Below are positions 654 through 50,645 of a DNA stretch of 64,000 bases, piece by piece. Source of the DNA: Synechococcus sp. Nb3U1 (GTDB taxonomy: Bacteria; Cyanobacteriota; Cyanobacteriia; Thermostichales; Thermostichaceae); contig NZ_JAKFYQ010000001.1 of NCBI RefSeq assembly GCF_021533835.1, forward strand, positions 1,026,079-1,090,078. Reading direction: 5' to 3'. Made by a program: the position numbers and the translations under genes. The notes below the pieces were generated by a model. It was not told the origin of the DNA, made no database searches, and saw only the letters and a list, made by a program, of their open reading frames with translations. Each line of letters starts with the position of its first letter. Position 1 is the first letter of the stretch.

Positions 654-3455
654 TTAGTCAACGCGGAAACGGCTGATGTGGGCTTCCAGTTCGCCGGAGG
701 TGGCCAGCAAGTCCTGGAAGGAGTGGGCGATACGATCGGAGTCTTGGGCGGTTTGGCTGGCGATGACGGCCACCGCTTGCATGGCTTGGCTCAGGGTTTC
801 TGACTGCTGGGTTTGGCTGGCGGTGGAGTGGCGGATCCCGCTCACCAGTTGGTTGATCTGCTGGGTAGCGGCGGCAATCTCGTTCAGGCTTTGGCGGGTT
901 TCGTTAACCAGGTTTGTGCCTTCCACCACCTGGGAAATGCCGATTTCCATGGTCTCGATTACCTCCTGGGTTTCCGCCTGGATCTCCTGCACCAACCGCT
1001 CGATCTCGTTGGTGGCATTGGCGGATTGGTAGGCCAAGGAGCGCACTTCATCCGCCACCACCGCAAACCCGCGCCCATATTCCCCGGCCCGTGTGGCCTC
1101 AATGGCGGCATTCAAAGCCAGCAGGTTGGTTTGGGTGGCGAAGTTCTCGATCAGGCGCACCACTTTGGCGATCTTCTGGGAGGATTCCCCCAAGCGTTTA
1201 ATTTTCTTGGCGGTCTCGGAAACGGTTTCCCGAATATCGAGGATCCCGTCCACGGTGCGCTCCATCACGGCATCCCCGGCTTCCACCCGCTGGTTGGCCA
1301 CCTGTACGGCCTGTTCCACCTGCTGAGCGTCTCGGGCCACCTGCTCGATGGAGTTCACCATGGTGTCCAGTTGGCCCAGGGCTTGGTTCAGTTCCTGTAC
1401 CTGCTGGGCTGCTTGACCTGCTAGGGCATCGACGGCCTCGCTACTATCGCTGGAGGTTTGAGCCACCTTGCCTGCCGCCACTTTCACCTGCCGCACCAGC
1501 TCCCGCAGGCTCTGGATGGTGGTGTTGTAGCCATCAGCAATGGTGCCAATTTCATCTTCCGTGAGGGGGGCGCGTACCGTCAGATCCCCTTGGAAAGACG
1601 GGGCCAGAGCCTGAAGTACTCGCAAAGCCCCTTGCTGTAGGTTTTCTTTGGCACCTCGCTCCCGCTCGGCAGCGACTGCTAACTCGGCGTTTTTCTGTTG
1701 CAGCTGCTCCAGAAACTCAATCTGCTGCAGGGCAATGCCAAACTGGTTGGCCACCTGCTGCACAAACTGGATCTCCTCCGGTTGCCAGACGCGGGGATCC
1801 CGGCATTGATGGACACAGAGCAGCCCCCAGACGCTTTCCCCCTTGAGCAGCGGCACCACCAGATGGGCGCGTACCTGAAACTGCTCCAGGATCTCCAGAT
1901 AACAATCACTCAACCCCGCTTGGTGCACATTCTCCAGCGCTTGGTAGCGGCCCTGGGCGTAGAGAGGGACATATTGTTCTCCCAGGCAGTGGTCGTGCAC
2001 ACGGGATCCCTGGGCAGTGCCAAAACCGGGCAACACATCCTCGGCGGTGCAGATCGAGTCATTCATACTGGTGCTGAGATCCAGTTGGAAAATCGCCACC
2101 CGATCCGCCTGCAAAAATCGTCGTACCTCCCGCACCGTGGTGCGAGAAATACTGGGCAAATCCAGAGATTGCCGGATCCGATCCACCAGGGTGGCCAGGG
2201 TTCGTTCCCGCTCCACCAGCTTAGATAGGGAGTCATTTTTACCTTGCAGTTCCACCAGGGCATCCGCTTGGCGGGCGGCCACCCCCAGTTGCTTGCCGAT
2301 TTGGTTCAACCAGTCGATCTCTTTGGGCTGCCATTGGCGGGGTTCGGAGTTTTGGTAGGCCCCTAGGATCCCCCACACCCGCTGCCCGGAAAATACCGGC
2401 ACCAATACGTAGGCTCGGGCTTGAAATTGCTCCAACAGGCGCAGGTGACAGGGATCAAACCCCGTGGTGTAGATATCATCAATGGCCTGGTACTCGCCGC
2501 GGGCGTAGCGGCCCCCCTGGGTTTGTTCCAGGTTGCTATCTTTGACACTCTGGCCCACCAGGGGCACCCAGCCACCGGCCACGGATTCCGCCACAAAGTC
2601 GCCGCTCCAGTCGGGGTTGAACTTGTAGATCACCGCCCGATCACAGTTGAGCAGCTTGCGCACATCCTGGGTTACCACCCGGAAGATCTCATCCGGACTG
2701 AGGGGTTCTCGTACCCGTTCGATGATTGCCTCGATACGTTGCCGTTCTTCGTTTTGCCCCTGCAACTGGGCTTTGAACTCATGAATCTGGATCAGCAAGC
2801 CCAGGTCACGGCAAATCTGGGCGAGCAAGCTCATTTCTGGGGCTGACCACACATGGGATCCGATGCAATGCTGCACCACCAGTAATCCCCAGGATCCCTG
2901 TTCGGTGCTGATGGGCATGGCCACCAGCGAGCGCACCTGAAACCGCTCTTGCAGTTGTTGCTGGTAGGGGGTGAAATCCGCCTCATAAACGTTGGCGATG
3001 GCACAGCCTTTTTCCTGCTCGTAAAGGGGGGCCGAAGCTAAACCAAAGGCCAGAGCTGGCAACGCCTCCCCTAGAGCGGGGGTGAATCCTTCCCGTACCG
3101 ATTCAGCGACAACGGATCCCTGGGTTTTGTCCGGGTTATAGTGATAGACCAAGACGCGATCCGCTCCCAAAGTCGCACGCACCTGTTGGGTGGCCTCTTC
3201 CAGAAGGGATCCACTTTGGCGCAGTTGTTGGGTAAGGGCCAACCCAGCTTCGGATCCCTCTGGGAAGGGCAGATGGCTGAGCAAATCGCTAACTTGGTGC
3301 AGCTTCTCCTTGATCCAGTGGGGATCCATGCGCTCCTGATCCCCATCCCGTTGGTCAAGCTGATCCCGTAGCTCAGCCAGTATCGCCGATATTTGGCTTC
3401 TGGATGAAGTCACTGTTCCATTGATTCGAGTCGGGGCTTGAAGAGTGATAACCAT
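654..3455 (-). CDS. pixJ: phototaxis methyl-accepting protein with three GAF domains (PixJ-like)
   Basis: 933 aa. Three GAF domains lie at about 80-225, 245-405 and 425-580, followed by a HAMP-like linker (about 610-670) and a methyl-accepting signalling domain with the hairpin tip [23 protein letters not shown]2 has [13 protein letters not shown] and GAF3 has [16 protein letters not shown]; both place a Cys where cyanobacteriochromes attach bilin. GAF3 also has an upstream DHCL in the DXCF position. GAF1 lacks the Cys (FTPYQQQL). No transmembrane segment is evident, unlike many PixJ proteins, so a soluble receptor is inferred. It follows pixI by 63 bp. Likely role: a light-sensing receptor steering type IV pilus phototaxis. 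The family call is firm; the photosensory role is inference. Confidence 0.85.
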
Positions 3456-3518: not shown

Positions 3519-4058
3519 TTAGGCCAGCAGGGTTTGGGCAATCGCTTGGGCATCCAGGATCAACAGAGGCTGACCCGCTTCAGAAAGGTAATATCCCTGA
3601 AAAAGATGCTTCTGGGCTGGCTTCACCACCTCCAGAGATAAGGGCAAAATCCGCTCAGGAGGGAAAGCAAAAAGAGTTTGCACTGAATCCACCAGTAGCC
3701 CAAATATTAAGCTCTGCTTGCTCGATGGAGCCGAAACGGCCACATCCTGCCCTTCTGCCAACAGCACACTGGCGCGCCCCTGTTCATTTCTACGAAATGG
3801 GGATCCCCCCAACAAAAGGGGCAAATCCAAAAGCCAAATTGCTTCGCTACGCCAACTGATCAAGCCCAACAGCAACGGGGACATATCCGGTACCGGTAAG
3901 ATTCGCTCTGGCGAAACAGGCAAGACTTCCCGTAGCTGCTGTAGGGGCATTAACAGCGATAAGTCCTCCACTTGGAACTGTAAATATCGCTCCGTTCGCT
4001 CCAGTTCCCGTTCCGGGACAAGCTGGGAGCCCCTCAGCTCTGTCAGCAGATCCAACAT
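3519..4058 (-). CDS. pixI: CheW-like adaptor (PixI-like)
   Basis: 179 aa from the ATG at 4058, which follows GAGGAG at 7 bp; a TTG 24 bp further upstream is open but has no ribosome site. It is a CheW fold with YLQFQVEDLSLLMPLQQLREVLPV near the N-terminus and LLLGLISWRSEAIWLLDLPLLLG in the centre. The protein would couple the PixJ receptor to a CheA/PixL kinase. It lies between pixH and pixJ with 11 and 63 bp gaps, the order known from the Synechocystis pix operon. The central variable loop includes serines and a glutamine-rich stretch; no oddities otherwise. Confidence 0.85.
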   Translation of the reverse strand: MLDLLTELRGSQLVPERELERTERYLQFQVEDLSLLMPLQQLREVLPVSPERILPVPDMSPLLLGLISWRSEAIWLLDLPLLLGGSPFRRNEQGRASVLLAEGQDVAVSAPSSKQSLIFGLLVDSVQTLFAFPPERILPLSLEVVKPAQKHLFQGYYLSEAGQPLLILDAQAIAQTLLA

Positions 4059-4069
4059 CGGGTTGCTCC

Positions 4070-4432
4070 TCAGCGAATCCAACGCTTGACGGTATCGATC
4101 AATTCAGTTGGGTTCAGGGGTTTAGTCAGGTAATCATCCGCTCCACCCATGCGGCCCCAGGTTTTATCCACATCCGTGCCTTTTGTGGAACAAATTACGA
4201 TGGGAATATTTTGGGTAGCGGGATTGGCCTTGAGTTTGCGACACAACTCGAACCCACTTTGTCCGGGCAAAATCACATCCAGCAAGATCAAGTTGGGCTT
4301 TAGGTTTTGCAGTTTCTGCTCGGCTTCTTCCCCACTACCCACCAGGGATACACTGAACCCTGCTTTTTGTAAGCTGAGGCTGATCAACTCGGCATCGGTG
4401 CGGCTATCTTCGACAACAAAAACACTGTTCAT
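4070..4432 (-). CDS. pixH: CheY-like response regulator (PixH-like)
   Basis: 120 aa single receiver domain from the ATG at 4432, chosen because GGAGAAACCC sits 6 bp before it; a start 30 bp upstream is also open. Phosphorylation site residues are present: acidic pair in FVVEDSRTDA, acceptor Asp in LILLDVILPG, Ser/Thr in VICSTKG and Lys in YLTKPL. The protein has no output domain, so it works by protein-protein contact, as CheY/PixH does at the pilus motor. It is in the order pixG-pixH-pixI-pixJ. Confidence 0.87.
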   Translation of the reverse strand: MNSVFVVEDSRTDAELISLSLQKAGFSVSLVGSGEEAEQKLQNLKPNLILLDVILPGQSGFELCRKLKANPATQNIPIVICSTKGTDVDKTWGRMGGADDYLTKPLNPTELIDTVKRWIR

Positions 4433-4503
4433 GGGTTTCTCCAAAGGATATGCAAGTGTCATTCAGGTAAGGACAAAGGTGAGAACAAAACGGTGGACAA
4501 CCC

Positions 4504-5775
4504 TCACACAGACTTTTTCAGAGGCAGATGTTTGTGCAAAATCGCCCCAATCCGCTCGGCATCCACAGGCTTGGCCAAGAAATCGGTGGCCCCCACCATG
4601 CCTGCTCGCACCCGATCCACCAGGCCATCGTTCCCGGTCAGGATCACAACAGGCAACTGTTTCAAAGCAGCCGCCCGTCGGATCTGCGCGCAGATCTCAT
4701 AGCCATTGGCGATGGGCATGACCAAATCCAGAAACACCAGATCCGGCTTGGCTTTGAGCAGGGTGGGGATGGCCTGTAGGGGATCCTGCACTGACTGAAA
4801 CCGGTAGCCCAATGGGGTGAGGATCCCTTCCAGGGTTTTGCAAATAATGGGACTATCGTCGATGCAGACCACCAACGGTTTGTTGGCATGGGGAGAAGGC
4901 GCAGGTATCGGGTTGGTTTTCAGAGGAGCGATCGCCACCGGCTCTTTCAGGATCTCGGTGGTCGGTTCGGCGGGGAGTGCCGGAGCAGGGCGAAACTCCG
5001 AGAAGCTCATGATCCCAACCGCAACATAACCGTTCAAGGTTTGGCAAAAGGGCAACAGTTCCTGCTGCATCTTCAGGGCCAAATGACGGAGGGTGCGTTG
5101 CCCATTGATCAACCGAGTGAGCACCTCAAAGTGGAGTGGCGCTTCTTGTTTGAGCAAATCGGGGCGACAAATGCTCGGGATTAAGTTGGGAGAAACGGCG
5201 GCCAGGCCAGCAGCTTTCCATCGGTGCCATTGCTCACGGGCTTTGCTGAGGGCTAGTTCTGAGCGGATCAAGGTGAGAGGGGATTGCACCCCATCTTTGT
5301 GATTCAGTTGGTAAGAAACCCGATCCTCACCTTCAATAAGAGTCTGTACATGGGACTCCACATCCTGTAGCAGATCGAACAACACTTCGTTCAAGCCTGC
5401 TTCGATCAGCTCGACCAATTGGCTGCGGCTTAGTTGTTGCCGTTGCAGTAATCCCGATAGAATCGCGTACTCGCGAATCGGAGCTTGAGCAGGCACCAGG
5501 CTTTGAATCTCAATTTCATCCACCCCAGGACAATACTGGGAGAGCAGTCGCCGCCAGCGGTGGTAAGTATTGTGTCCGCCCGTTTGCCAAACGAAACGCC
5601 CCAAGCAGAGATAGAAACTCCAACGCAGCTCCCCAATGCCAAAAATATCCAGCCGGCCACTGAAGCGCTCATCGCTCAATTGTTGCAACAGGGATCCTAG
5701 GGGGGCTTCGCCACAACGAATGAGATCTATCGGCTCTGAGTTGGGAGTGCGGGGGAAAAGAGGGCTAGCATTCAT
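4504..5775 (-). CDS. pixG: PatA/PixG-type PATAN-receiver response regulator
   Basis: 423 aa. The N-terminal half is a PATAN domain (GSLLQQLSDERFSGRLDIF... then a helical segment rich in Gln/Leu). The C-terminal receiver starts near residue 300 with VVCIDDSPIICKTLEGIL, acceptor Asp in LVFLDLVMP, Thr in VVILTGND and Lys in FLAKPVD. In cyanobacteria this architecture is CheY-like regulators such as PixG, PilG and PatA, which control pilus-driven movement or patterning. It begins 58 bp after the EAL phosphodiesterase gene and precedes pixH by 71 bp. A run of Pro-rich residues (about 265-295) links the two domains. Confidence 0.85.
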   Translation of the reverse strand: MNASPLFPRTPNSEPIDLIRCGEAPLGSLLQQLSDERFSGRLDIFGIGELRWSFYLCLGRFVWQTGGHNTYHRWRRLLSQYCPGVDEIEIQSLVPAQAPIREYAILSGLLQRQQLSRSQLVELIEAGLNEVLFDLLQDVESHVQTLIEGEDRVSYQLNHKDGVQSPLTLIRSELALSKAREQWHRWKAAGLAAVSPNLIPSICRPDLLKQEAPLHFEVLTRLINGQRTLRHLALKMQQELLPFCQTLNGYVAVGIMSFSEFRPAPALPAEPTTEILKEPVAIAPLKTNPIPAPSPHANKPLVVCIDDSPIICKTLEGILTPLGYRFQSVQDPLQAIPTLLKAKPDLVFLDLVMPIANGYEICAQIRRAAALKQLPVVILTGNDGLVDRVRAGMVGATDFLAKPVDAERIGAILHKHLPLKKSV

Positions 5776-5833: not shown

Positions 5834-6850
5834 TCAAAAGCAAGCAGCTGCTACAGGCACCGTCGGTAACCAAGACTGCACCTGTTCTGGAGTGAGCGGG
5901 AAAGATAGGTGATACCCTTGGCCCATCGGGCAGCCAATGTTCTGGAGATGCTCTAATTGCTCAGGGGTTTCAATACCCTCAGCTACAACCGCCAGATCCA
6001 ACTGCTGAGCCAACAGCAAAATCAACTGCAAGGTGTCCCACCGTTCTTTGGCCACAAAACTTTGGTCAATTTTGAGGAAATTCAGAGGCAAATTATCCAG
6101 GCAACTGAGGGAGGAGTAGCCAGTACCAAAGTCATCCAGGCCGATTTGGATCCCGAGTCTTTGCAGATGTAGGAGCTGCTGGCTGGCCTTGTCATAGTTT
6201 TGAACAGCAGAACTTTCGGTCAGTTCTAGGCTCAGGTGGCGAGCCGGGAACCCCGTTTCCAGCAAAACTCTGCTAATTTGTGCTCTCAGATCGGGCTGAT
6301 CCAGTTGTCGGGCAGAAAGGTTGACACTCAGTTGCAGAGGTCGACCCAGTTGTTTCTGCCACTGCACCATCTGTTGGCAGGCGGTTTTGAGCACCCAGAT
6401 CCCCATCTCGTGGATCAAGTCACTACACTCCGCCACCGGAATGAATTCACTCGGAGGGATCCACCCCCGTTCCGGATGTTGCCAGCGCAGCAGAGCCTCA
6501 CATCCAACTAGTTCCCCCGAATCCAGGCGGAAAAAGGGTTGGTACTGCAGAAGCAGTTGTCCACGGCCCAGCGCCAGCTTAATCTCGCTGTCTAAGCTTT
6601 GGGAGAGCACCGCTTGGCAAGAAATCCCTTCAGGAACACTCGGCCCCCGCAATAAAGACAGCAGATGCAGAGCATTCTGGATCCCGGCCTCCAGCAGCTG
6701 CCGCCCTTTCGGGGAGTGCAAGTTCAATCGACCCTGGTGAATCAGCCGCAAGGTTCCCCAAAGAGTAGCCAGGTGAGACTGCACCTCGTCCGTTGTCGCT
6801 TCAGACAACTTTGGCAATTCTGCGGAGGGCTCTAGGGGAGGCTGCAACAT
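5834..6850 (-). CDS. EAL-domain cyclic-di-GMP phosphodiesterase
   Basis: 338 aa from ATG 6850; a TTG 33 bp upstream is also in frame, and neither start has a clear ribosome site. The N-terminal about 90 residues are helical and unassigned. The EAL domain (about 95-330) keeps the catalytic set: CEALLRW, SVNLSARQL, LELTES, DDFGTGYSSL, LKIDQSF and AEGIET. It should hydrolyse c-di-GMP to pGpG. There is no GGDEF partner and no membrane span. The gene is 58 bp upstream of pixG on the same strand, so it probably heads the phototaxis operon and lowers c-di-GMP, which favours motility over attachment. It is divergent from the response regulator at 7139. Confidence 0.85.
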   Translation of the reverse strand: MLQPPLEPSAELPKLSEATTDEVQSHLATLWGTLRLIHQGRLNLHSPKGRQLLEAGIQNALHLLSLLRGPSVPEGISCQAVLSQSLDSEIKLALGRGQLLLQYQPFFRLDSGELVGCEALLRWQHPERGWIPPSEFIPVAECSDLIHEMGIWVLKTACQQMVQWQKQLGRPLQLSVNLSARQLDQPDLRAQISRVLLETGFPARHLSLELTESSAVQNYDKASQQLLHLQRLGIQIGLDDFGTGYSSLSCLDNLPLNFLKIDQSFVAKERWDTLQLILLLAQQLDLAVVAEGIETPEQLEHLQNIGCPMGQGYHLSFPLTPEQVQSWLPTVPVAAACF

Positions 6851-6860
6851 AAGGTGTTCG

Positions 6861-7092
6861 TTTTTGCGTATGTTTACGTACAATTCGAGACTAAGCTCTC
6901 ATGAGGGAAAAGACCGGGAAATGAATGGGGAAAGCGAGAGATTACGCATTTTTGCGGATCCTTATACGCCATAGATCTGGGATCTACAGATGCCCGAATG
7001 GACTCCTGTCAGGGATCCGCAGCTTGTCTATTTCTGAGGCCAAGCTCTAATCCTTACACGCTGATTTACGTGTTTTTACGGTATTGTATAAT
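6861..7092. promoter_or_regulatory. divergent promoter region with repeated TTTACG/TTTGCG half-sites
   Basis: Three pairs of similar hexamers occur between the EAL gene and the response regulator: TTTTTGCG/GTTTACG at 6861-6878, TTACGC/TTTTTGCG at 6942-6956 and TTTACG/TTTACG at 7065-7080. Half-sites within the flanking pairs are spaced about one helical turn, as in OmpR-family direct-repeat operators. A perfect TATAAT lies at 7087-7092, with the 7065-7080 pair in the -35 position and the regulator ATG at 7139. Binding by the adjacent OmpR-type regulator is inference. Confidence 0.45.
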
Positions 7093-7138
7093 TTTTTCAA
7101 TCCACTCGATCCCTCGATTCCGAGGTCTGCCCTGGCAT

Positions 7139-8911
7139 ATGAAAATCGTCTTGGTTGAGGATGACCAAGTTCTGGCCCAGCTTATTTCCGATCGCCTGCG
7201 CAAAGAGCACTATGTGGTGGAGATGGCCACCAATGGCCTGGAAGGGTTGAAATTGACTCGCGTTACGGCAGCCGACCTTTGGATTATCGATATTGAGCTG
7301 CCCAAGCTAAATGGTTTTCAACTGTGTCAGCGCCTCAGGCAACAAGGGATCCAAGCGCCAGTTTTACTGCTCACGGCACGGCGAGGGGAGACAGATCTGC
7401 TGACGGGGTTTAACCTCGGGGCGGATGATTACCTGGTTAAGCCTTTTCAGATATCGGAATTGCTGGTGCGGGTGCGGGCTTTGCTCCGCAGACCTCGGCA
7501 ACTGCAAAACACTTTGTTGTCCTGGGGGGTGTTGGAACTCAGTACAGAAACTGCCACGGTCACCTATGGGGGGAAACCTGTATCCTTACGCCCCAAAGAA
7601 TACAAGTTGCTGGAGATTCTGATGCGGCATGGGCGCCAAATACTTAGCTATGAGCAACTGTTTGACCAGCTCTGGACTTTGGAAGAAACCCCCAACAAAG
7701 AATCCCTAAAAGCTCATATCAAAGGGCTTAGAAAAGCTCTGAAACAAATTGATGCTCCCCTGGATATCATCGAGGCGATTCGTGGCTTAGGGGTTCGCCT
7801 GAACCCCACTTACGAAACAGCAGAACCTAAGAACTCAGAGTCTTCCTCGATCCTGTCGCAATTACAAGAAGCCTGGCCCAGCTTCAAGCCCAAAATGATG
7901 GAGCGTATTCAACTGATCGAAACCGCCCTCGGCCACTTGGAAAAAGGTCAACTCTCCCCCGATCGGCGGGAACAAGCTCGCACTGCCGCCCATACGCTAG
8001 CGGGATCCCTGGGCACCTTCGGTTTTGCTGGAGGGACTCAATTGGCCCAAGAACTGGAAGATGGATTGTCTTTTTCTAGTGAATCTTTACAACGGCTACA
8101 GGAGAAGATCCTGCAACTGAGAAAGGAACTAGAACAGGATCCCTTTGCTAATCCGTCCCCAAGAGATCTTTCTCTACTGCTGATCGGTTCAAACCCAGAA
8201 ACTCTGGCTATTCTCAAAAGTTTTTCCAGCCAATCAGGGATCCGGTTGGAACAAGTTGCTTGTCCCCGCGATGCCAAGTTGCTGATGGGATCCGTAAATG
8301 TTTTACTATTGGACTTGGATCACCCTAAAGCTGAGGAGCAAGGGATCCAATTAGCCAAACGGTTTGGGATCCCTTACATTCTCGTTTTGCAGGAAGATCA
8401 ACTGGCTGCACGAATTGAAGCTCGACGAAAAGGTGCATCCGGGTGTGTGATCAGCCCTTGCCCGCCGGAGTTACTTCTACAAACAGTGCGGCGCGCTGCC
8501 CAGAAGGTTAACCCGCTATGGATGAACGTGCTGGCGGTAGATGATGATCCCCATTTTCTGGAAATCCTTAAAGTGATGCTTGGGAACTTTTCCCAGCTCA
8601 CGTTTTTACAGGATCCCCGGGAATTTTGGCCCGTTCTTCAGTCCATCATGCCGGATGTGCTGCTGTTGGATGTCAAAATGCCCCATTTTTCCGGTATTGA
8701 TTTATGCCATGCGGTGCGTACCGATTCCCGCTTCGACCGGATCCCGATTGTGATGATCACGGGTCACCCTGATGAACTGAGTGCAGCAGGGGCTTTGGCG
8801 ATTGGGGCCAATGATTATTTGAGTAAACCTATCCATAGCCAGGAATTGCACCTCTGTTTGGCTCGCCATCGGTTTGGTTCTGCTTCAGCAGTTGCATCGA
8901 TGGGATCTTAA
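7139..8911 (+). CDS. multidomain OmpR-type response regulator (REC-wHTH-HPt-pseudoREC-REC)
   Basis: 590 aa from ATG 7139 (MKIVLVEDDQVLAQ); the frame is open 141 bp further up but that part looks non-coding. REC1 (1-120) has VEDD, acceptor Asp in LWIIDIELP, Thr in LLLTAR and Lys in YLVKPF. A winged-helix domain follows (about 130-225, ending GLGVRLNP). An HPt domain (about 240-330) has the His in TAAHTLAGSLGTFG. The middle receiver (about 345-460) lacks the acidic pair and the conserved Lys, so it is a pseudo-receiver. REC3 (about 462-585) is complete (LAVDDDPHF, LLLDVKMP, VMITG, YLSKPI). It is a phosphorelay hub that binds DNA, type known in cyanobacteria, divergent from the EAL-pix operon. 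Confidence 0.85.
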   Translation: MKIVLVEDDQVLAQLISDRLRKEHYVVEMATNGLEGLKLTRVTAADLWIIDIELPKLNGFQLCQRLRQQGIQAPVLLLTARRGETDLLTGFNLGADDYLVKPFQISELLVRVRALLRRPRQLQNTLLSWGVLELSTETATVTYGGKPVSLRPKEYKLLEILMRHGRQILSYEQLFDQLWTLEETPNKESLKAHIKGLRKALKQIDAPLDIIEAIRGLGVRLNPTYETAEPKNSESSSILSQLQEAWPSFKPKMMERIQLIETALGHLEKGQLSPDRREQARTAAHTLAGSLGTFGFAGGTQLAQELEDGLSFSSESLQRLQEKILQLRKELEQDPFANPSPRDLSLLLIGSNPETLAILKSFSSQSGIRLEQVACPRDAKLLMGSVNVLLLDLDHPKAEEQGIQLAKRFGIPYILVLQEDQLAARIEARRKGASGCVISPCPPELLLQTVRRAAQKVNPLWMNVLAVDDDPHFLEILKVMLGNFSQLTFLQDPREFWPVLQSIMPDVLLLDVKMPHFSGIDLCHAVRTDSRFDRIPIVMITGHPDELSAAGALAIGANDYLSKPIHSQELHLCLARHRFGSASAVASMGS

Positions 8912-49248: not shown

Positions 49249-50403
49249 TTACCCCTCTACATCGATTGCTACATCTACCTGCAGGTTGGTCAGCCCTGCC
49301 ACCCGCTCACTACTTTGCGGGTCGAGACGAATGCGCACCTCCACCACGCGGGCATCCACATCAGCAGCAGGATCGGTATTTAAGACATCTTTTTTGCGGA
49401 TTTGCAGCCCAATTCGCTCCACCTGACCCCGCAATTCTTCTGGCAAGGCGCGGTTGCTAATGGTGGCCTGTTGCCCCAGTTGAATGCGCAGAATGTCGGT
49501 TTCGTAGATTTCCGCCACCACCATCATCTGGTCGGTATTGCCCAGGTCGAGAATGCCGTCGTTGTTGGCGATCGCTTCTCCAGGATAAGTCCGAATTTGC
49601 AACACCCGGCCATCTCGGGGGGAACGGATCAGGGTGCGTTCTAGGCGGGCCTCTGCTAGCTCCAGATTGCGGGCCAGGGATCCCAGTTGCACTTGGGCTT
49701 GGGCCAGAGTGAGTCCCGCTTCGGCGGCCTGGACTTGGGCTTGGGCATTGAGCAGATCTTGAGTACGAGCTGTTTGCAGTTGGGTGAGGGTGGCCTGAGC
49801 TGAGCGCAGTTCCTCCTGCCGTTGCCGCACGACTAGGGAGCGCTGGTCTAGCTCCTGTCGGGAGACCGCCCCCTCCTGCCAAAGGGCCTGAAAGCGGGCC
49901 AAATTGGCTTCTGCATCCGCCAGTTCTGCCTGAATGCGTTCGACAACAGCCTCCTGGGAGCGAATTTGCATCAGTTGGGGTTGATCCAGCTGGCTCACTC
50001 GGGTGCGAGCCTCCTGGATTTGGGCCTGACTAAACCGGGTCTCGGCCTCCAGTCGGGCGCGGGCCTCCTGCAATTGGGCCGCTGCATACTCTCGTTCTGC
50101 TGCCCGCTCAGCATAACTCTCCAGACGGGCCACCACCTGTCCTGCGACCACTTTATCCCCCTCTGCCACCAATAGCTCACCGACCCGTTCTCCGGCAGGG
50201 CCGGCAATGCGCAAGACTTCTCCTTCTGGCTCGATCCGACCCAGGGCACCGATGCGGGGGGGTAGAGGAGTTTCAGCCGCCGCTTCAGAACCCTCTGCCG
50301 ATGTAGACTGCGTGGCGCCCTGTTGGCCCAGAACCAACCCTGCCAACGTTGCTGACCCAAGGATCCCAGCCACCACCATCGACCAAAGCACATGTTGTTT
50401 CAT
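49249..50403 (-). CDS. devB: DevB-type HlyD membrane-fusion protein
   Basis: 384 aa from ATG 50403; ATG 50436 is possible. One N-terminal span (HVLWSMVVAGILGSATLAGLVLG), then a lipoyl-like segment RIEPEGEVLRIAGPAGERVGELLVAEGDKVVAGQVVARLE, a long alpha-hairpin coiled coil rich in Gln/Ala/Arg (about 95-230) and a beta domain ending DVAIDVEG. It bridges the ABC exporter to an outer-membrane TolC channel. It is the first gene of devBCA and is divergent from murC across 242 bp. Confidence 0.87.
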   Translation of the reverse strand: MKQHVLWSMVVAGILGSATLAGLVLGQQGATQSTSAEGSEAAAETPLPPRIGALGRIEPEGEVLRIAGPAGERVGELLVAEGDKVVAGQVVARLESYAERAAEREYAAAQLQEARARLEAETRFSQAQIQEARTRVSQLDQPQLMQIRSQEAVVERIQAELADAEANLARFQALWQEGAVSRQELDQRSLVVRQRQEELRSAQATLTQLQTARTQDLLNAQAQVQAAEAGLTLAQAQVQLGSLARNLELAEARLERTLIRSPRDGRVLQIRTYPGEAIANNDGILDLGNTDQMMVVAEIYETDILRIQLGQQATISNRALPEELRGQVERIGLQIRKKDVLNTDPAADVDARVVEVRIRLDPQSSERVAGLTNLQVDVAIDVEG

Positions 50404-50645
50404 CGAGATCCCGTTAACTTTCTGCGTCTTGAGCATTCTTAAACAAATGTAAAATTTGTTGAGCTAGGATGTCCAGCTGTATTCTTTGGTTTCTGTTTTC
50501 ACCGTATTTTCGCCCCCTTGCTCCGCTGTGAAGCGCGAACTACCTCCCTCAGGGGATTCCTGATATGATGTGGCCTGTTCGGAACCTGTGCTTCGGGTGC
50601 CAATTTTTAGGGTGTGGTGGTCTTTAGGAGTGGGGTGAAGTTGCG

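Follow-up and report, generated by a model that had tools for sequence, protein, structure and literature searches.

HLR1-like tandem repeats between an EAL-pix operon and a divergent OmpR-type regulator gene in Synechococcus sp. Nb3U1

The window analysed here, a stretch of 64,000 nucleotides from the genome of Synechococcus sp. Nb3U1, contains near one end a 288-bp gap (positions 6851-7138) between two divergent genes. On the minus strand lies a gene for an EAL-domain protein of the c-di-GMP phosphodiesterase type (5834-6850; Pfam EAL, 1.5e-66), the ATG of which is the complement of 6848-6850. It is followed on the same strand by a PatA/PixG-like gene with DUF4388-like and REC domains (4504-5775, the DUF4388 match falling just below the Pfam cut-off), a CheY-like receiver gene (4070-4462), a CheW-like gene (3519-4082) and a PixJ-like gene for a GAF domain-containing methyl-accepting chemotaxis protein (654-3455), all assigned with Pfam, and by more same-strand genes beyond the window, one of which by eye begins like CheA. 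On the plus strand, starting from the ATG at 7139, lies a gene for a response regulator of 590 residues (7139-8911) in which Pfam identifies a REC domain, an OmpR/PhoB winged helix, an HPt domain and, after the latter, at least one further receiver domain, a layout that we take to resemble that of RcaC. RpaB, which in cyanobacteria acts as the global response regulator for light and redox state, is encoded elsewhere in the same genome (NF045944, 399 bits against a cut-off of 330), as are several other regulators of the OmpR type. The divergent regulator is not RpaB, as it reaches 190 bits against the same cut-off, and the region of its recognition helix differs from that of RpaB. Among six genomes of the genus only one other, G005, encodes a close orthologue of this regulator (83% identity). 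Longer frames, running from an ATG at 6998 for the regulator and from a TTG at 6883 for the EAL gene, were judged non-coding because the additional stretches are not conserved in G005.

Six TTRCG words occur on the plus strand of the gap, starting at 6864, 6874, 6942, 6952, 7066 and 7076, and none on the other strand. They form three pairs, each of exactly 10 bp from start to start. Pair a (6863-6880, plus strand; TTTGCGTA-TG-TTTACGTA) lies 13-30 nt upstream of the EAL start codon, pair b (6941-6958, plus strand; ATTACGCA-TT-TTTGCGGA) can also be read as a partial inverted repeat, CGCA-N4-TGCG, and pair c (7065-7082, plus strand; TTTACGTG-TT-TTTACGGT) lies over the -35 element of a candidate promoter of the regulator. 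A preliminary description of this DNA had reported three pairs of related hexamers between the divergent genes, one of them just before the EAL start, and both observations are borne out. It had given a spacing of about 10 bp to the flanking pairs, which is correct for a and c, although the spacing is not confined to them as b shares it.

Three TTRCG pairs were found in none of 5,000 dinucleotide shuffles of the gap. When the word was left free (any 5-mer with no more than one degenerate base, at a spacing of 8-13), three pairs arose in one of 3,000 shuffles and, across the window, in five of 664 overlapping 288-bp pieces, namely the gap itself, one adjoining piece with a GGRAA word and three from a single A-rich stretch. 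Genome-wide the strict motif TTRCGN5TTRCG shows no excess over reversed controls, with 21 matches in 3,487,976 bases (3.49 Mb) against 26 for the reversed motif; three of the 21 matches sit within 217 bp, in the gap. The cluster of tandem repeats in the gap is real and not a product of chance, though the motif is not enriched genome-wide.

The only promoter-like site found in the gap is a candidate sigma-70-type promoter of the regulator at 7065-7092 (plus strand), TTTACG-N16-TATAAT, with 10 of 12 matches, the first hexamer of which is overlapped by pair c; because 0.7 such sites would be expected by chance, this candidate is not statistically strong. Within that limit the placement of one pair at the -35 position of a TATAAT promoter, as first described, is upheld. 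Transcription of the regulator gene would start near 7099, and relative to this predicted start pair c spans about -34 to -17. The same search of the gap yielded no promoter-like site for the EAL gene.

The box bound by RpaB, HLR1, has the published consensus KTTACAWW-N2-KTTACAWW (PMC13421787; PMC11633204). The first of these papers also gives a rule of position, by which boxes at about -66 to -45 serve activation by RpaB and those at -38 to +23 serve repression. Pairs a, b and c share the geometry of this box, in which two direct repeats of 8 bp are separated by 2 bp. Against the published consensus a matches at 13, c at 12 and b at 10 of 16 positions, scores equalled or exceeded at 7, 44 and 1,190 positions of the window, respectively. 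Boxes of HLR1 geometry are also present upstream of psaA in all six genomes of the genus and, in a common form, upstream of five of 15 hli-family loci. These sites were used to train a half-site model, built from the six psaA loci and the five hli loci that present one common conserved site, picked by eye, with the other ten hli loci dropped. Under this psaA+hli model a ranks first, c third and b 131st among 127,966 positions of the window. The prk sites described below were omitted from it, having been found via a motif seeded by this window; with these included a ranks first, c second and b 38th. Models from a single class of locus are uneven in their ranking of the pairs: a is fourth and c 27th with psaA only, a eighth and c first with hli only, and a 142nd, c second and b 17th with prk only.

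Shuffling the gap 3,000 times never produced two such high-scoring sites under the psaA+hli model. The model is only modestly specific, finding in 400 kb of the genome at the 10-bp spacing five sites that score at least 16 and 12 that score at least 13, the latter against 8, 10, 10 and 12 at other spacings. At a score of at least 15 there are eight sites at 10 bp against four, two, five and two at spacings of 8, 9, 11 and 12, and many of the sites in the 400 kb fall inside open reading frames. The model is therefore not proof by itself, and the case for a and c as HLR1 draws on the presence of two high-scoring sites in one gap, on their position and on the retention of a. One match in the 400 kb adjoins a gene that by eye is psbV-like. 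The next best HLR1-like site in the window is TTTACATTTGTTTAAGAA (50436-50453, minus strand), at the start of a minus-strand open reading frame of 395 residues (49249-50436).

A tandem KTTAC pair of the same geometry is found 69-70 bp before the start of prk in all six genomes of the genus, weakly so in G001. It lies between prk and a divergent gene that by eye is petH-like (L093, L094, L095-L098), and its half-sites often read TTACG or TTATG, with the G at position 6 that is also seen in the pairs of the gap. Four of the genomes with this prk pair have no orthologue of the divergent regulator. In the genome of Nb3U1 the strict form TTACGN5TTACG occurs as well upstream of genes that by eye are SigF-like and class II fructose-bisphosphate aldolase-like (L046, L048).

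Comparison of the gap with that of G005 shows a block of 79% identity over 6840-6958 (query positions 1-119), which stops at the last base of pair b; beyond b the two gaps do not align until the start of the regulator. Identities are 13 of 18 for a, 48 of 60 for the interval between a and b, 16 of 18 for b and 39 of 106 for the interval between b and c. In G005 pair a reads TTTACATTTATTTATGTA and its five substitutions leave it less identical than the neighbouring bases, yet it is the better HLR1, its psaA+hli score rising from 16.6 here to 19.9. When five bases of a were changed at random, 1,920 of 200,000 variants kept the starting score and 222 reached that of G005; with the published consensus the same test is weaker (10,838 and 2,285 of 200,000, respectively). 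In G005 the inverted repeat of pair b is perfect, CGCAT-TT-ATGCG, and its direct repeat is poorer. Of pair c only the second half-site can partly be made out there, in a badly aligned stretch, and the pair as such is not conserved. Conservation upstream of orthologous gene pairs, put forward as a check in the preliminary description, extends in the one such pair, that of G005, to a and b and not to c.

The neighbourhood is also altered in G005. The EAL orthologue (L040, G005:C1:78280-79293) is 91% identical over its length and contains one in-frame TAG, and it is followed by a gene that by eye is ferrochelatase-like and not by pix genes, so that the linkage of EAL and pix genes is not kept there. 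In G007, from another genus of the family, the pair of EAL and DUF4388-REC-like genes is present twice in tandem (L142, G007:C19) before CheY-like and CheW-like genes, these followers being named by eye, and has other neighbours; upstream of the EAL gene no good HLR1 was found there. A search of contigs from GTDB release 220 for further orthologues returned seven loci, all of them distant non-cyanobacterial records.

As judged from sequence, these observations support an operator of the OmpR/PhoB class, made of tandem repeats, between the divergent genes. We put at about 0.5 the probability of the reading in which OmpR-class tandem boxes make the gap a regulatory region and, among these boxes, a and c are most probably HLR1 sites bound by RpaB. 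The two would then plausibly add a new location to those of a known box. By the published rule c would lie in a repressing position, as would a if the start site of the EAL gene is near. In low light RpaB on c, over the candidate -35 of the regulator, and on a, before the EAL start, would block both genes, and in high light RpaB would leave and the regulator and EAL genes would be expressed. With more of the EAL phosphodiesterase and of the RcaC-like regulator, c-di-GMP would be expected to fall, and the EAL protein together with the pix genes might then change movement. Pair b may belong to the same operator or be a separate inverted-repeat site. Binding of RpaB at a or c, the sign of the regulation and its physiological effect are all put forward here as predictions. 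If they hold, the control exerted by RpaB, as the light/redox regulator of photosynthesis genes, would extend to a c-di-GMP phosphodiesterase, phototaxis genes and another response regulator, so that movement would be tied to light stress; in the titles and abstracts of the papers searched, RpaB was not linked to phototaxis or c-di-GMP.

A dedicated operator of the divergent regulator had been the reading of the preliminary description; in this case the RcaC-like protein would bind the pairs and control the EAL operon as well as the promoter of its own gene. In favour of it are the divergent placement, the roughly one-turn spacing of the direct repeats, which would suit any dimer of the OmpR/PhoB class, the rarity of the strict motif elsewhere in the genome and the presence of the regulator together with pairs a and b in the same two of six genomes of the genus. 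Against it, 32 distant full-length homologues, surveyed besides this regulator and its G005 orthologue, show no such array within 400 bp upstream, where single TTRCR pairs occur once at 10 bp and once at 11 bp, and none is seen by eye before a paralogue of the regulator in the same genome; an operator conserved across the regulator family can be rejected. Moreover the pair that lies at the promoter of the regulator itself, c, is missing as a pair from G005, where the EAL gene has the in-frame stop and lacks the pix genes after it, the gap has no L-box of RcaC, and the same class of box stands before prk in genomes without the regulator. Of the original proposal, the tandem-repeat operator of the OmpR/PhoB class is supported and its dedication to the divergent regulator is not, given the match of a and c to HLR1 and the prk pairs. 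With but one close orthologue, and with the regulator and pairs a and b sharing the same two genomes, self-regulation keeps some probability; we regard such an autoregulatory operator as unlikely and as less likely than RpaB at HLR1.

It is doubtful that another regulator of the OmpR family binds here, or that two regulators do, one at a and c and one at the inverted repeat of b. The several other OmpR-type regulators of the genome, and the form of b in G005, would allow for this, but the HLR1 match of a and c requires no further regulator. Rather improbable too, on our assessment, is a shared switch at which RpaB and the RcaC-like regulator read the same or interleaved 10-bp boxes, HLR1-like at a and c and distinct at b. 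Such a switch would let a redox signal from photosynthesis act together with a second phosphorelay in setting the EAL phosphodiesterase and the phototaxis operon, and would wire RpaB directly to c-di-GMP and movement. Very improbable is a reading of the repeats as chance words in an AT-richer gap, in keeping with the absence of c as a pair from G005 but at odds with the shuffles, or of GTATGTTTACGTAC at 6868-6881, which overlaps a and fits the NtcA consensus GTAN8TAC, as an NtcA-type site, a candidate we rejected since its first triplet, GTA, is ATT in G005 while the HLR1 score of a rises.

Set beside known systems, the tandem boxes of the gap show both likeness and difference. The L-box of RcaC, TTGCACA-N4-TTGCACA, has a period of 11 bp; like the gap pairs it is a direct repeat about one helical turn apart, and the locus has adjacent to it a regulator of RcaC-like layout, whereas the gap pairs have a period of 10 bp and the best match to the L-box sequence in the gap, 9 of 14, is equalled at 296 positions of the window. 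PhoB-type operators, or pho boxes, are tandem direct repeats for a winged-helix dimer, an arrangement to which the gap pairs are likewise suited, while the sequence of their half-sites is of the HLR1 kind. With HLR1 the likeness includes the KTTRC core as well as the 8-bp repeats and 2-bp spacer, and c over a -35 would be at a repressing position for RpaB. The gap half-sites differ from HLR1 in having G and not A at position 6, a feature shared with the prk pair of the genus, b departs strongly from HLR1, and the boxes lie not at a photosynthesis gene but in a divergon of phototaxis/c-di-GMP and regulator genes.
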